From IMG/VR virus record IMGVR_UViG_3300009537_000084, positions 1 to 35,029 of that record: 35,029 bases of DNA; one strand, written 5' to 3'. The position numbers were made by a program, and so were the translations under genes. The notes beneath the pieces were generated by a model. The model ran no database searches. It had not been told where the DNA came from and worked only from the letters and a program-made list of their open reading frames with translations. Source of the DNA: a virus. Shown here piece after piece: positions 7,907-22,041 of this stretch. Numbering within the stretch: position 1 is the first letter of the stretch; the number at the start of each line of letters is the position of its first letter.

Positions 7907-8329
7907 TTACTTTCGGAAGGGGTTGACCAGACGATGGAAGTTTTCCACGGAGATTTCGACAAGAGCTTTAGTTCTGTCGTAATTGTAGAAGACTTTAATT
8001 GCGTCGCCGAATGCCTCTTGGAGCGGCGCGGAGATAGCCTCCAGTTTAATCTGGTCTTCTAGCTCTCGGGCTTCTCTAGCTGCTATTGCCTCCAAGTTAG
8101 CTTTCTCAGCGACTTCGTAGGACTCCCAAGAGGATCTAATTCCGCTCGCTGAGCGTTGGACTTTCCTCCCACCCTCTAACCGGAAAATTCCAGCCTCAGG
8201 GTTGGAGTTTGGAACCAAACGAATAAAGGTTCCTTTTACAACTCGGTAGGAAAAGCGTCCATACCCTCGGACACGCTCGGAAATGGCGTAGTCTTTTCCA
8301 GATTCACAGTCGCTTGGGCTGAACCACAT
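7907..8329 (-). CDS. Hypothetical early protein with helical Glu/Ala-rich middle
   Basis: ATG at 8329 follows GGAGG four bases upstream, so the protein starts MWFSPSDCESGKDYAISERV (140 residues). The upstream in-frame extension crosses a strong hairpin and is rejected. The N-terminal 70 residues look beta-rich (YGRFSYRVVKGTFIRLVPNS). A charged helix follows (EAIAAREARELEDQIKLEAI), then a beta-alpha end (AIKVFYNYDRTKALVEISVE). No family is recognised. It is transcribed behind a terminator-like hairpin at 8366-8423 and may be attenuated. Confidence 0.65.
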   Translation of the reverse strand: MWFSPSDCESGKDYAISERVRGYGRFSYRVVKGTFIRLVPNSNPEAGIFRLEGGRKVQRSASGIRSSWESYEVAEKANLEAIAAREARELEDQIKLEAISAPLQEAFGDAIKVFYNYDRTKALVEISVENFHRLVNPFRK

Positions 8330-8365
8330 ATTTCCTCCAAAGAGAAAGAGAAAAAGAGGATTGAG

Positions 8366-8423
8366 ACCGCGTCCCCCCGCAGCCACTAGTGTTGATGCGC
8401 GCTGTTTTGTGGGGGGACGCGGT
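8366..8423 (-). terminator. 13-bp GC-rich inverted repeat followed by U-rich tract
   Basis: ACCGCGTCCCCCC (8366-8378) and GGGGGGACGCGGT (8411-8423) pair perfectly over 13 bp around a 32-base loop. Read leftward, the stem is followed by a tract rich in T (CCTCTTTTTCTCTTTCTC), so it looks like an intrinsic terminator or attenuator. It lies 36 bases before the start of the 8329 gene, so it could limit read-through from genes further upstream or regulate that gene's leader. Confidence 0.6.
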
Positions 8424-8822
8424 TTCAAAGGCACCTCAATATTAGGGTGTGTATAGCTCGACGAGGCGAGCAGAGTCAGACCAGAATTACGTGTTGGTAG
8501 ACGCTTTACGTTGAAGATCCCCAACCTTCATTTTTGGCTTTTCGCGTTCACTCGCTACTCTCCACGGTTTAACGCCCCTTTACTAGCGGGATTGCTAGGA
8601 CAGCTAAGAAATTAAACTACCAGAGTCTATAGAGTTTTCTTTGGCACGTGGGCCGCAGCCACTCTAATAAACACACGTCACCGACATGTTTTGACTTGAG
8701 GTCTTTTAATTTCTTACCTAGCTAGACGTTTTTCGCGGTTGCCCGAATATTTCCGTCGAAATACTGGGACGCTAGGGAGTTGGGTCGCACCTAGATTGCT
8801 AGACTCTTTACACTACCCTGGC

Positions 8823-8851
8823 CGATACGTGGGGTTTGAAGCCACGTATCG
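8823..8851 (-). repeat. Post-stop hairpin, copy 1 (loop GGTTTGAAG)
   Basis: A 10-bp stem CGATACGTGG/CCACGTATCG encloses the loop GGTTTGAAG (plus-strand reading). It begins five bases after the stop codon of the leftward gene at 8857. Two further copies (10178-10206 and 10403-10431) keep the loop exactly but have different, fully compensated stems. Downstream on the minus strand all copies continue with GGCCA. There is no U-tract, so it is not a normal terminator. Confidence 0.6.
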
Positions 8852-8856
8852 AAGTG

Positions 8857-9042
8857 TTACGGTATGTTATGGTTACGGGGTTTTCGCAGCATTTTGAGTT
8901 TCCCGCGGAGCCACGTAAGCATGTCCTCAGCTTGGGCGACTTCCCTACTGTCGTAGTCGCCATAATAACGGTAAATCCGTTCCCATTCCACGATACGCTC
9001 GATGAGAAATTTTTGAGCGGCGCGGTTCTCTTTGCGCGTCAT
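8857..9042 (-). CDS. Small basic helical protein, hypothetical
   Basis: ATG at 9042 overlaps the upstream stop (ATGA) and is preferred over a TTG at 9066. The 61-residue protein starts MTRKENRAAQKFLIERIVEW. It is mostly helical with alternating charges, and ends basic (LRGKLKMLRKPRNHNIP). The basic tail suggests nucleic-acid contact, but no domain is recognised. A conserved hairpin follows the stop by five bases. Confidence 0.65.
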   Translation of the reverse strand: MTRKENRAAQKFLIERIVEWERIYRYYGDYDSREVAQAEDMLTWLRGKLKMLRKPRNHNIP

Positions 9043-9638
9043 TTTAGAATCCAAAGCGCGCCGCAAGTTTTACAGTCTCGGGCTGTGTAGTAGGTGCCGC
9101 TACTGTCGACCGTCTTGTAGGAAGTATGAAATCCCCAGTTGGGGTCTGGACAAGGCATGTCCGTATTCGGCCTTTTGTGTGGGATAGCTGAACACCTATT
9201 GGACACACACACGTTCCCTTTAACCTTGCCCGTCCCCTTCCACACGCCCGTCCCATTACACACATTACAGTTTGGGTCGGGTTTAGCTTCCGGCAGCTCT
9301 TCCGCCGGTGTGGTTACATCCTGAGGAACGCCGCTTTTCGCGGCACCGCGTAGCATGGCGTCAATCAAGGAAACCGTGCTACGCGGCCCGAGCGCGTGTT
9401 CCAGGAACGCTGCGCTTTCGCGGTAAGTCTCTCCGACAAACTCACACGCTTTTTCCATGAGAAAGCGCGCGGTAATTCCGTGGCGCGCCGCGAGCGGGTG
9501 TCTCTTTTTCCAGCCCTCAGCATGGATCCGGAACGTGAAAAGCTCCCGCTCACGCGCGAGGTCTTTTTTCAGATTTTCCCCGGCAAACTCCCCGAGAAGA
9601 ACAATGCTCCGAGTCTTTTTCTCACACTTCTCGCACAT
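9039..9638 (-). CDS. Zinc-finger protein with DnaJ-type CxxCxGxG motif
   Basis: ATG at 9638 has GGAGG five bases upstream and is chosen over a GTG two codons earlier. The 199-residue protein starts MCEKCEKKTRS (one zinc knuckle). It then has a helical middle section, and a C-terminal cysteine region with CNVCNGTGVWKGTGK (a DnaJ-like CxxCxGxG repeat), CVSNRC and a final CKTCGALWILK. It is likely to bind one or two zinc ions and a nucleic acid or protein partner. Its leader contains the candidate pseudoknot at 9703-9768. The SD GGAGGTG is complementary to a hairpin loop at 10364-10370. Confidence 0.7.
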   Translation of the reverse strand: MCEKCEKKTRSIVLLGEFAGENLKKDLARERELFTFRIHAEGWKKRHPLAARHGITARFLMEKACEFVGETYRESAAFLEHALGPRSTVSLIDAMLRGAAKSGVPQDVTTPAEELPEAKPDPNCNVCNGTGVWKGTGKVKGNVCVSNRCSAIPHKRPNTDMPCPDPNWGFHTSYKTVDSSGTYYTARDCKTCGALWILK

Positions 9639-9702
9639 TTCCACCTCCGATGCTTTTCGGGGAGTTTGGTGTGACCTAGTCCAGATTTTGATAATTCAAT
9701 GC

Positions 9703-9768
9703 ATAAACCAAAAGGTGGAGGGGTGCATTTCCCCAGGGCCGTGGCCCCGGTTTATAGCCTTACCTTTT
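9703..9768 (-). ncRNA. Candidate H-type RNA pseudoknot in a gene leader
   Basis: Read leftward, AAAAGGT (9768-9762) pairs with ACCTTTT (9716-9710), and ATAAACC (9755-9749) pairs with GGTTTAT (9709-9703). The two 7-bp helices interleave, and their 3' strands abut, allowing coaxial stacking. Between them sit two perfect hairpins, GGGCC/GGCCC (9747-9736) and GGGG/CCCC (9734-9720). The element lies about 65 bases before the start of the zinc-finger gene at 9638 and just after a tRNA-like sequence. The pairing is exact but unsupported by alignment; it may be a regulatory leader. Confidence 0.45.
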
Positions 9769-9812
9769 AATTTCGAGTGCCTCTTGGCCTATGCATTCAA
9801 TCATCAAGTAGT

Positions 9813-9919
9813 GGAGATAGCAGGGATCGAACCTGCGCGTGGACGCTCGCCACAAAGTTACCCGGAGAGATGCGGCCGCCCTCCGCTTTTGCTCTAGCCG
9901 TGTTTGAGCAGTTATCCCC
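9813..9919 (-). tRNA. tRNA-like element with aberrant centre
   Basis: Minus-strand GGGGATA and TATCTCC form a 7-bp acceptor stem with one G-U pair. GCTC/GAGC forms a D-stem with an A-rich, GG-containing loop. GCAGG/CCTGC encloses TTCGATC, a standard T-arm. The whole is 107 bases, about 30 longer than a normal tRNA. The middle contains two hairpins (GCGG/CCGC and GTGG/CCAC) with 7-base loops, but neither has U33. It may be a decayed tRNA, an intron-bearing tRNA or a tRNA mimic. No CCA is encoded after the discriminator. Confidence 0.4.
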
Positions 9920-10177
9920 AAAGGAATGATGCCCGTTTGTTTTAGAATTAACGGAGCCGAAAAATTCCCGCTCGGAGTTACGTGCTAGGCATTTTGGCGG
10001 CCGTCACCCAGCTACGGAGAGTTTTCGATTTTGGTCGTGTTTTTCTCTCAACACGCTAGTTTTTTGCCAAGGGATTAGCAACCTTGCCACGATCTGTAGA
10101 CGGGAGTTATCTCGTGGTTTGACTGCGCGGCATCACGCTTTGGTTTTTCAAAGCGACTATCCGGCCCGCCCGTTGGC

Positions 10178-10206
10178 CGACGCTAGGGGTTTGAAGCCTA
10201 GCGCCG
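10178..10206 (-). repeat. Post-stop hairpin, copy 2 (loop GGTTTGAAG)
   Basis: CGCTAGG/CCTAGCG (7 bp, with two more pairs beyond one mismatch) encloses the conserved loop GGTTTGAAG at 10188-10196. It begins five bases after the stop codon of the small membrane-protein gene at 10212. The stem differs from the other copies, but the loop and the following GGCCA are the same. Confidence 0.6.
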
Positions 10207-10211
10207 AATTG

Positions 10212-10307
10212 CTACAGCGTGAAACCCGACACTACCAAGAACACCAGAATGAGTGCAAACAACGCACCCTCTAGTGCGTCCCCAGCGGAAAGCTTTTCAC
10301 TTCCCAT
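10212..10307 (-). CDS. Very small membrane protein (31 aa)
   Basis: ATG at 10307 has GGAGG four bases upstream, preceded by a run of eight A. The 31-residue product MGSEKLSAGDALEGALFALI continues with a hydrophobic segment LVFLVVSG and ends FTL, so it is a polar N-terminus plus one membrane segment. Its strong ribosome site, fitting hydrophobicity and a conserved hairpin five bases after the stop support it as a real gene despite its size. The function is unknown. Confidence 0.6.
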   Translation of the reverse strand: MGSEKLSAGDALEGALFALILVFLVVSGFTL

Positions 10308-10356
10308 GCGTCCTCCTTTTTTTTAACTACGGAAAAGATGGAACAGCGGACTTACA

Positions 10357-10377
10357 TACCGGGGGAGGTGCCCGGTA
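10357..10377. promoter_or_regulatory. 7-bp hairpin with SD/anti-SD loop
   Basis: TACCGGG and CCCGGTA enclose the 7-base loop GGAGGTG. Read leftward, the loop is CACCTCC, identical to the core of the 16S rRNA anti-Shine-Dalgarno sequence. The transcript could therefore pair with strong SD sites such as GGAGGTG in front of the gene at 9638. It lies in a 130-base gap between two leftward genes. A role is inferred only. Confidence 0.35.
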
Positions 10378-10402
10378 ACGCCGCGCTCCTTGAAACTTTG
10401 GC

Positions 10403-10431
10403 CCGTGGTAGGGGTTTGAAGCCTACCACGG
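10403..10431 (-). repeat. Post-stop hairpin, copy 3 (loop GGTTTGAAG)
   Basis: A perfect 10-bp stem CCGTGGTAGG/CCTACCACGG encloses GGTTTGAAG (10413-10421), seven bases after the stop codon of the gene at 10439. The stem sequence is unlike copies 1 and 2, yet pairing is complete, which is the signature of a selected RNA structure. Confidence 0.6.
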
Positions 10432-10438
10432 AAGGGTG

Positions 10439-10789
10439 CTACTCTTTCTCGAAAACCGCCGAAACCCGGATGGTTGCTCCGGGAATCTTGACGGCCGCGA
10501 GAGCGACGGAACCGCCCGCGTTCCCGAAATCCGGGGACGTGACGGATACGACACGGCTCGCATCCTGCATCGTCTCGACGCTGACGTGATCCGCGAAGAC
10601 GCGGAGCGCATTCGTGATCCCGTCCGCGTGGGCACGAATCTCCCGCACGGCATCTTGCTGCACTGCGAGAATTTCGGCCCGCTTGTCCTTCAGTGCGGGA
10701 TTTTCCCGCACGTTGCGGAGAATTTCCGCCTGAAGCGCGAGCATCTGCTCAAGTGACATGCCTTCCAGCATGTTCCCATTCGTTGCCAT
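10439..10789 (-). CDS. Hypothetical helical protein (116 aa)
   Basis: The 116-residue protein begins MATNGNMLEGMSLEQMLALQ. It has an amphipathic helical N-terminal two thirds (ILRNVRENPALKDKRAEILA), then a beta-rich C-terminal third (GGSVALAAVKIPGATIRVSA). AAAGGTAG lies upstream of the ATG at 10789. The mix of coiled-coil-like helix and beta tail could suit an oligomeric regulator, but no family is recognised. Small hairpins bracket it on both sides. Confidence 0.7.
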   Translation of the reverse strand: MATNGNMLEGMSLEQMLALQAEILRNVRENPALKDKRAEILAVQQDAVREIRAHADGITNALRVFADHVSVETMQDASRVVSVTSPDFGNAGGSVALAAVKIPGATIRVSAVFEKE

Positions 10790-10836
10790 GGTGCTACCTT
10801 TCTACCCTTTCGGGCGTTGTTAGTGTCCAGCGGAAG

Positions 10837-10856
10837 TCCCAAGCCTACGCTTGGGA
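10837..10856 (-). repeat. Post-stop hairpin, second family
   Basis: TCCCAAGC/GCTTGGGA (8 bp, loop CTAC) lies 11 bases after the stop of the gene at 10868. A similar one follows the gene at 11159 (11131-11151). Both share the CCAAGC/GCTTGG core and continue leftward with ACTTCC. It looks like a second family of conserved 3' hairpins. Confidence 0.5.
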
Positions 10857-10867
10857 TCCGCGCATTG

Positions 10868-11086
10868 TCATGCGGGGAGCGGCCGTTTGCTCGCGCAATC
10901 CGCGCACGGGCAAACGGAAGCCACGGCCTCCGTGTATCCCACGCCGGATTCGACGAGCGTGAGCACGGATTCGGCAGCTTCGGCCTGCCGAAGATGTTTT
11001 TCCGTCAACTCTCCGTTGACGACGGCTTCTATCACGGCCGTGGCATACCGCGCGAAAAGATTCTGAGCTTTGTCAAGATCGGTCAT
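10868..11086 (-). CDS. Small helical protein with C-terminal cysteine motif
   Basis: The 72-residue protein begins MTDLDKAQNLFARYATAVIE, is helical through most of its length, and ends with VCPCADCASKRP, a C-x-C-x2-C cluster that could bind zinc or an Fe-S group. ATG at 11086 is preceded by GGAGG with four bases of spacing, inside a region that also carries the GTGTCAAGC sequence shared with the palindromes at 12304 and 12486. The function is unknown. Confidence 0.7.
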   Translation of the reverse strand: MTDLDKAQNLFARYATAVIEAVVNGELTEKHLRQAEAAESVLTLVESGVGYTEAVASVCPCADCASKRPLPA

Positions 11087-11111: not shown

Positions 11112-11128
11112 GGTAAACACTCATGGGA
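11112..11128 (+). repeat. 17-bp inverted repeat, left copy
   Basis: GGTAAACACTCATGGGA occurs here on the plus strand and again on the minus strand at 11582-11598 without a mismatch. The pair flanks the two small genes at 11159 and 11364. Confidence 0.6.
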
Positions 11129-11130
11129 AG

Positions 11131-11151
11131 TGCCAAGCGGTTAGCTTGGCA
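11131..11151 (-). repeat. Post-stop hairpin, second family
   Basis: TGCCAAGC/GCTTGGCA (8 bp, loop GGTTA) begins seven bases after the stop codon of the gene at 11159. It shares its core and flank with the hairpin at 10837-10856. Confidence 0.5.
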
Positions 11152-11158
11152 ATCCCTG

Positions 11159-11335
11159 CTACGAGCCGACAAGGTAGCAACGTATCGTTGCTACAAGTCG
11201 AATCCATCCGCTGATGGGCAGTTCCACAGCCCCATACTGGCTTCCGTAGAAAGCTCCGAGGCGGATATGCTTCCGACGGTCCTCGATTCGGGCACCGTTG
11301 ACGCGTGCCCATTCAGAGAATAGCATTGAACTCAT
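11159..11335 (-). CDS. Small hypothetical protein (58 aa)
   Basis: ATG at 11335 follows GGAGG with six bases of spacing, so the protein is MSSMLFSEWARVNGARIEDR and onwards for 58 residues; the longer frame back to 11524 overlaps the neighbouring gene and is rejected. It has a basic helical N-terminal half and a hydrophobic C-terminal half (GWIRLVATIRCYLVGS). Its final codons contain a perfect 9-bp inverted repeat (11174-11194). It lies 28 bases downstream of the gene at 11364. Confidence 0.65.
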   Translation of the reverse strand: MSSMLFSEWARVNGARIEDRRKHIRLGAFYGSQYGAVELPISGWIRLVATIRCYLVGS

Positions 11336-11937: not shown

Positions 11938-11976
11938 GGGTAGTCCACAATCCAGACTTGGGTAGTCCACAATCCA
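11938..11976. repeat. Direct repeat GGGTAGTCCACAATCCA x2
   Basis: Two exact 17-bp copies, 11938-11954 and 11960-11976, lie 22 bp apart (about two helical turns). They precede the 28-base repeat array and may be protein-binding iterons. Confidence 0.55.
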
Positions 11977-11980
11977 TCTG

Positions 11981-12134
11981 TAAGTGCTTGATATCGTTGG
12001 GGAATAGGGTAATCCCTGGGTTCGGGAGAACCCACCAGCTAAGTCCCCGGGATCGCTCGGGAAATAGGTGAACGGAAATTCACTGAACGGCGAGTCATTA
12101 ATGAGCTAAGTCCTTGAAAACGTTGGGGAATTGC
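11981..12134. repeat. Three 28-base direct repeats alternating with hairpins
   Basis: Units start at 11981, 12040 and 12107 (TAAGT-C, a variable middle, then CGnTnGGGAAT-like ends). The second and third are preceded by AGC. Each is followed by a different hairpin: GGGTTC/GAACCC near 12018-12033, GTGAA/TTCAC near 12068-12083 and ATGAATG/CATTCAT near 12141-12156. Spacing is 59 and 67 bp. The layout resembles an iteron or origin array. Confidence 0.5.
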
Positions 12135-12258
12135 TGCGACATGAATGCCCATTCATTGTGTGGCATTTTGCCACAGTCTGGGTTCTGTCGGACTCGGGTA
12201 TCAACCCTATTGAGTGTTGCAGAAACGCCACTGCTGACTGCGACACACATGGAACACT

Positions 12259-19611: not shown

Positions 19612-20955
19612 ATGGCATCTACAGCAGCCGCCAACCTAATTAGCACTGGGAATTACAGCGACGCGCGTTATTCCAAGTTCATCCAGGCGCGTCTTCAAGA
19701 GTATGGCCGCAAGGACTATGCTCTTGATGAATACCTGGATGGCGTGACCATTCCCAAGGGTCACTCCGCGACCTACCAGATCACACGGAAGGCGCGCATT
19801 CCCACCCCGCTTACCGCCGTTTCGGAGTCGATCACACCGACCGCTACAGCGCTCACACTAGATACCGTTACAGGCACATCGACCCAATACGGTATCGTTT
19901 GCTCCTACTCGGACGTGACGGAGCTACAGCAGCGCCACTCGATGCTTGAGCAGGCGTCTGACGAAGTGGCCGACGCCATGAAGCGTCTTCGCCAGTGGAT
20001 CGCGGCGGACGCTTACATCGCGCTCACCAACGTCTACTACCCCGGTGCTGTGACCGCGCGTGGCTCGCTCGCGACTACAGATATCATGGACACAGCGACG
20101 GCGCGCAACGCCCTCAAGAATCTCCGCGCTGGCCTCGATATCAAGCTCGGCGCTCCTGCGCCTCGCGAAGGCACGTTCTTCGTGGCACCCGCCCACCCTG
20201 ACGTTATCGCCCAACTTCGCGGCGACGCGACGTTTGAAAAGGCGGCTACCCAGGTCAAGACAGAGTGGATGGAGAAGGGTGTGGTTGCCGCGTGGGAAGG
20301 TTTCATGTGGCGTGAAGTTAACCACATGCCCGTTTTCATGAACCCGGTCACCGGCATGGCGTCCACTACACTTCTTGATGCCACAGCGGTTTCGGATTCC
20401 ACAGGTGTCACAGGTGGCGTGTCTCTCAACGGCCTCAAGGTTACTGCGGCGAGCACGGGCGGTTCGCTCGCCTCGGCTGTCCACTACCTAAAGGTTGTGG
20501 CTCGGCACCGTTGGAAGGGCTTCCCGGATCAGATTTCCTCGATCCTTACTCTGCCCACCACGGGCGGTTCGTCCGGTAAGTATACAATCGTGGCTCCCGA
20601 TGATACGGACTACATCTACTCGTTCTACCTCGGGGATACGAACTCCAACGCCGACCTGTTCCTGGTTTCGGACGGCACGAACGTTGCGGCGGCTTCGTCC
20701 ACAGTTGTCACGGCGCTCCCCACAGCCACCACACCCCCGGCTCACCCCGCCACCGGCGTCAAGGTTTACATGACACCCGGTCTCGGTCAGAACTGGGGTA
20801 AGATGGTCACCCTCGACAACGCCCGCACCTACGTCACCACAGGCGCGGACAAGAACGACCCCCTCAACCAGCAGACGTTTGTTGGTGCGAAGGTTCACCA
20901 GGGCGCGTTCGTGTCGCAGGATGACTTCGCCATCCGCATGGAAACAGGCGGCTAA
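19612..20955 (+). CDS. Major capsid protein, N4-gp56 family
   Basis: The 447-residue protein resembles the N4-gp56 family of HK97-fold capsid proteins: a YSKFIQARLQEYGRKDYAL start, a TPLTAVSESITPTATALT loop, the QYGIVCSYSDVTELQQRHSM segment, and the HPDVIAQLRGDATFEKA helix. Between about residues 250 and 395 there is a beta-rich, Gly/Ser/Thr-rich stretch. It looks like an inserted Ig-like domain, which could be an outer-surface decoration or an attachment site. It forms the icosahedral shell around the DNA. Confidence 0.88.
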   Translation: MASTAAANLISTGNYSDARYSKFIQARLQEYGRKDYALDEYLDGVTIPKGHSATYQITRKARIPTPLTAVSESITPTATALTLDTVTGTSTQYGIVCSYSDVTELQQRHSMLEQASDEVADAMKRLRQWIAADAYIALTNVYYPGAVTARGSLATTDIMDTATARNALKNLRAGLDIKLGAPAPREGTFFVAPAHPDVIAQLRGDATFEKAATQVKTEWMEKGVVAAWEGFMWREVNHMPVFMNPVTGMASTTLLDATAVSDSTGVTGGVSLNGLKVTAASTGGSLASAVHYLKVVARHRWKGFPDQISSILTLPTTGGSSGKYTIVAPDDTDYIYSFYLGDTNSNADLFLVSDGTNVAAASSTVVTALPTATTPPAHPATGVKVYMTPGLGQNWGKMVTLDNARTYVTTGADKNDPLNQQTFVGAKVHQGAFVSQDDFAIRMETGG

Positions 20956-20964
20956 TAGACCGAA

Positions 20965-20986
20965 GTGGGGCCCTTCGGGGCCCCAC
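20965..20986 (+). terminator. 9-bp GC hairpin with UUCG loop after the capsid gene
   Basis: GTGGGGCCC and GGGCCCCAC pair perfectly around a TTCG tetraloop, an extra-stable RNA hairpin. It lies 10 bases after the capsid stop codon. Only TCTCT follows, so termination may be partial. It may also protect the 3' end of the capsid transcript. Confidence 0.7.
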
Positions 20987-21005
20987 TCTCTAACAGGAGA
21001 AAACA

Positions 21006-22003: not shown

Positions 22004-22041
22004 GGGGCCGTCGTCGGTAATGGCGGCGGCCCCTTTCTTTT
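22004..22041 (+). terminator. Rho-independent terminator
   Basis: GGGGCCGTCGTC (22004-22015) pairs with GGCGGCGGCCCC (22022-22033) over 12 bp, including two G-U pairs, with the loop GGTAAT and the U-rich tail TTTCTTTT (22034-22041). It sits 20 bases after the stop of the gene at 21984. Late genes follow it, so it may act as a partial stop or attenuator between the head and tail genes. Confidence 0.75.

Follow-up and report, generated by a model that had tools for sequence, protein, structure and literature searches.

The leftward genes of this phage carry three minus-strand hairpins that begin a few nucleotides behind stop codons and present an identical 9-nt loop (CTTCAAACC) and an invariant foot on paired stems of different sequence (Table 1). 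From their pattern of covariation, we find strong support for these hairpins being real selected RNA (or single-strand) structures. We consider them, with modest confidence, to be cis-acting RNA elements at the 3' ends of leftward mRNAs, which would stabilise, terminate or process the message and be read by a factor. The evidence base consists of three copies in one genome. The window analysed here is the whole IMG/VR record, with a length of 35,029 bases; the record is classed as linear and may be less than a complete genome. Its rightward genes include a terminase, a portal and a gene in the capsid position, at ~25% identity to podovirus-like environmental phages, and those running leftward encode, among others, a DNA helicase, an AAA ATPase and a PD-(D/E)XK nuclease.

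Table 1. Hairpins, preceding open reading frames and neighbouring features in the window
Feature	Coordinates	Strand	Description
Hairpin 1	8819-8853 (hairpin 8823-8851)	minus	UUC-GAUACGU-GG[CUUCAAACC]CC-ACGUAUC-GGCCA; 5 nt after TAA (8857-8859)
Hairpin 2	10174-10208 (hairpin 10178-10206)	minus	UUC-GGCGCUA-GG[CUUCAAACC]CC-UAGCGUC-GGCCA; 5 nt after TAG (10212-10214); followed by a ~530-nt non-coding stretch
Hairpin 3	10399-10433 (hairpin 10403-10431)	minus	UUC-CGUGGUA-GG[CUUCAAACC]CC-UACCACG-GGCCA; 7 nt after TAG (10439-10441)
ORF ahead of hairpin 1	8857-9066	minus	69 aa from TTG, shorter from ATG; no family match
ORF ahead of hairpin 2	10212-10307	minus	31 aa, hydrophobic; strong AGGAGG ribosome-binding site
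ORF ahead of hairpin 3	10439-10789	minus	116 aa; no significant family match
Second family, copy 1	10830-10861	minus	GCGGA-UCCCAAGC[GUAG]GCUUGGGA-CU-UCCGC; after stop at 10868
Second family, copy 2	11125-11156	minus	GGGAU-UGCCAAGC[UAACC]GCUUGGCA-CU-UCCC; after stop at 11159
Post-stop hairpin	20964-20987	plus	AGTGGGGCCC-TTCG-GGGCCCCACT; without U-tract
Post-stop hairpin	~22004-22033	plus	13-bp GC-rich stem, 4-nt loop
Stretch without evident gene	8525-8818	minus	~290 nt between hairpin 1 and the ORF at 7907-8524
tRNA-like element	9809-9919	minus	acceptor GGGGATA/TATCTCC; D-arm GCTC-AAACACGGCTA-GAGC; T-arm GCAGG-TTCGATC-CCTGC; end ACTA
Long imperfect hairpin	9680-9810	minus	directly after the tRNA-like element; UUGAUGAUUGAAUGCAUAGGCCAAGAGG pairs with CCUUUUGGUUUAUGCAUUGAAUUAUCAA
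Repeat region	11950-12250	minus	upstream of the leftward block; TTCCCCAACG..TCAAG.ACTTA and GGATTGTGGACTACCCA; several short palindromes

A hairpin family with compensated stems

Each of the three hairpins has a perfect 10-bp stem, with a single G-U pair in the second. The copies align without gaps over 35 columns as UUC-N7-GG[CUUCAAACC]CC-N7'-GGCCA, in which 21 columns are invariant and the remaining 14 make up the two stem arms, N7 and N7'. Every one of the seven variable middle pairs shows two-sided changes, compensated in all copies. When the helix is counted as 11 layers in each copy, all 33 cells are paired, one variable cell as G-U, and four layers are invariant: the two loop-closing G-C pairs, the basal C-G pair and the U-G below it. 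An initial annotation of this DNA had placed three post-stop hairpins with a common loop at these positions, where we confirm them with paired stems. It had also described the stems as entirely different but fully paired; the pairing is indeed complete and seven pairs vary, but four of the eleven layers do not. The conserved part, given there as the loop and the following GGCCA, includes both of these but is larger and extends to UUC...GG-CUUCAAACC-CC...GGCCA. Over the 61 nt surrounding hairpin 2, folding is no better than in shuffled sequence (z -0.15), owing to competition from the GC-rich flanks.

A chance origin of the family was ruled out by shuffling, by displacing the paired columns and by comparison with public loci. 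In 300 dinucleotide-preserving shuffles of the window, two hairpins with the same loop (stem of at least 7, loop of 7-11) never arose. By the same definition the window holds 18 hairpins, against a shuffle mean of 8.9, and the sole reused loop is that of the family, found three times. Within 310 public loci (3.47 Mb, 1,871 hairpins), no single locus carried the same loop on different stems, and sliding the pairing partners by 1-3 columns lowered pairing from 100% to 33-42%. The initial annotation had proposed a covariance-model search, and a model built from the three copies returned exactly those three in the 35-kb window. They scored 54-55 bits, a match that follows by construction, so that the informative quantity is the gap to the next score: the rest of the window reached at most 11.5 bits, and the opposite strand at the same three places at most 10.2 bits. 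Because of the seven compensated pairs and these controls, the earlier proposal of a selected element, drawn from covariation inside one genome, is strongly supported.

Searches outside the window covered both known RNA families and the sequence pattern itself. No Rfam 15 family reached its gathering threshold in the window, and nothing credible appeared at relaxed E-values either. Pattern scans for the loop, closing pairs and foot were run in strict and relaxed form on 2.9 million viral contigs (IMG/VR) and in strict form on 84,980 prokaryote genomes, yielding 5, 14 and 43 stretches from viruses and 88 from the genomes; neither set held another copy that was both paired and intergenic. No genome match extends the stem beyond 4 base pairs. 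In the viral set, 5-7 pairs form in three matches, which were taken as chance since they lie within or antisense to open coding frames: an open frame runs through the hairpin in L008, and the matches in L293 and L295 run antisense to a common NWFKRGLKPL protein. No DNA match to the window was found among 50,697 phage records; the relatives found are related at the protein level only, at ~25% identity, and searches with the terminase, portal, helicase and a 201-aa neighbour protein returned no close relative from collections that may leave out entries nearly identical to this record. The nearest annotated phage records, MW202477 and MW202637, have hairpins of their own without a shared loop of this kind. 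With no close relative available for comparison, the lack of further copies is uninformative on function.

Position behind stop codons

The hairpins share a common orientation relative to the leftward genes, and their spacing from the preceding stop, initially read as 5-7 bases, measures 5, 5 and 7 nt, whereas the following gene lies at varying distances. Judged by position, the elements are tied to the stop and not to the following start, which favours a 3'-end role for the preceding message and agrees with their place right behind the stops. We infer that the hairpins act as RNA and target the 3' end, with a factor that recognises the loop. The stem would fold once the ribosome clears the stop codon, and would define or protect the 3' end of the upstream message by blocking 3'-to-5' exonucleases and/or marking the stop or cut site of a polycistronic transcript. 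Since the stem is free to change while loop and foot are constant, the stem would need only to pair, and the loop CUUCAAACC, the closing G-C pairs and the UUC/GGCCA foot would be read by a phage or host factor. Such reading would place the three ends under a common control that is absent from the neighbouring post-stop hairpins.

The elements resemble intrinsic terminators and 3'-stabilising phage hairpins in being strong hairpins a few bases past a stop in operon gaps, and the G+C-rich hairpin expected downstream of a gene is present in the form of 10-bp stems. However, no U run follows the stems, as the initial annotation had recognised; the tails are GGCCAGGG, GGCCAACG and GGCCAAAG, and a terminator scan calls none of the three. 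The 9-nt loop and foot are invariant and the mid-stem is free, the reverse of the situation in ordinary terminators.

Strong hairpins without the shared loop also occur behind other stops. Between 8.8 and 11.2 kb, all five leftward stops with a clear gap are followed by a strong hairpin (-16.6 to -23.4 kcal/mol per 50 nt), three of them with the shared loop and two of a second family, and no U-tract follows any of the five; a sixth stop, at 9039, overlaps the next ORF and has no hairpin. The second family had likewise been noted initially after two other stops. It is real but looser, with common CCAAGC/GCTTGG inner stems and a following CTTCC, while outer stems and loops differ. On the rightward side, strong hairpins follow the stops at 20955 and 21984, which end two genes, one of them the capsid-position gene. 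These observations suggest that U-less post-stop hairpins are a general habit of the phage and that the three shared-loop copies carry an extra sequence-specific part. The dinucleotide CA directly follows all five hairpin-preceding minus-strand stops (8857, 10212, 10439, 10868 and 11159, reading TAACA, TAGCA, TAGCA, TGACA and TAGCA). Stop-codon readthrough was considered and rejected, as the phase of hairpin 3 relative to its stop differs from that of hairpins 1 and 2, leaving no common read-through peptide.

Several RNA-like and repeat features lie in the same region. The stretch between hairpin 1 and the next ORF is predicted to fold into a branched structure (z -2.3), matches nothing in Rfam and is possibly a non-coding RNA. 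The tRNA-like element was missed by ARAGORN at default settings; in it, an arm of ~53 nt replaces the anticodon and variable arms, and its match to tmRNA is weak (E 0.0008 over 171 nt; 13.3 bits against a gathering score of 47). The long imperfect hairpin adjoining it scores z -5.55 relative to shuffles. A common origin of the two non-coding stretches was discarded, their local similarity of 22 falling below the shuffled maximum of 28. The repeat region upstream of the leftward block looks, from its sequence, like a regulatory or origin region.

Possible readers of the loop and foot

RNase P or another tRNA enzyme is the most specific candidate reader of the loop, though unproven. The determinants of bacterial RNase P comprise the T-loop/T-stem, a 12-bp distance, N-1 and RCCA-GGU pairing (PMC11143913, PMC12710915); the enzyme has been described as a caliper (PMC4919913), and G53 is among the positions of strong interference with RNase P RNA (PMC11143913). 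Reported substrates include hairpin models, phage RNAs such as M3 and C4 RNA, and T4 mRNA (gene 32) (PMC11143913, PMC12710915). The hairpins could be tRNA-minihelix mimics that RNase P cuts or other tRNA enzymes hold, a proposal that we regard as unlikely. Each would copy the acceptor-plus-T-arm stack, with a T-loop UUCAAAC, a long continuous helix and a 3' GCCA; a putative cut between U-1 and C+1 would leave the upstream message with a short tail and free a downstream RNA bearing a tRNA-like 5' hairpin.

In all three copies the loop holds the T-loop consensus UUCRANY, GCCA directly follows the last C-G pair and a U precedes the would-be cut, which together with the long helix and phage origin recalls acceptor/T-arm minihelices, model hairpins, C4, M3 and the T4 gene 32 mRNA. 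Among 776 distinct control hairpins of other loci, the T-loop consensus occurred in 3, a stem-end RCCA in 20 and the combination in none. Downstream of hairpin 2 there is also a tRNA-like element. However, the universal G53-C61 pair that closes the T-loop is replaced by C-C in every copy, and the helix between loop and GCCA, with 10 standard pairs and the C-C, has 11 layers, one short of the conserved 12, a count reached only by including the U-G, which uses up the discriminator. The likeness was, moreover, spotted after the fact, and the three copies amount to one event. Owing to the C-C at 53-61 and the short helix, we do not file the hairpins as RNase P substrates. We are more doubtful of the full scheme, in which the phage would set mimics behind its stops as sites for RNase P (or another tRNA enzyme) that cut polycistronic messages and free downstream non-coding RNAs, with tRNA maturation enzymes replacing terminators.

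Protein-bound hairpins, for example the coat-protein operator and boxB, typically combine an invariant loop with a stem that varies. The three hairpins share with boxB/nut sites and coat-protein operators a fixed loop on a stem of free sequence. They might be bound by an RNA-binding protein or small RNA, encoded by the phage, that controls the three genes or the downstream RNAs as a repressor, antiterminator or anti-nuclease, and would then have no special part in forming the 3' end. Non-coding stretches follow hairpins 1 and 2, and the leader of a small ORF follows hairpin 3, as such regulation would allow. We nevertheless hold this to be improbable: no candidate binding protein was found, the neighbouring ORFs match no family, and it is the spacing to the stop, not to the next gene, that is conserved. 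The leftward strand contains no exact complement of the loop or its 8-mers, and a kissing partner for the loop was discarded on the same 8- and 9-mer search. We know of no protein-bound phage hairpin that matches this loop sequence, 10-bp stem and post-stop position.

A DNA-level element (a cruciform or single-strand hairpin) serving a recombinase, packaging or replication protein is very improbable: compensated stems would be kept equally for a single-strand DNA hairpin, but all three copies have the same orientation to transcription and begin 5-7 nt behind stops, the tested ORFs yielded no recombinase, and the scans gave no intergenic copy elsewhere.

Our preferred reading is that of a 3'-end element of leftward messages, and if a factor does read its loop, the element would be a ready handle on how the phage ends or processes its messages. 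Were the tRNA mimicry to hold, the phage would be using host tRNA enzymes to process its mRNA at stop codons. The phage belongs to a lineage almost unknown by sequence, and covariation within its single genome reveals selection on RNA structure without relatives for comparison.
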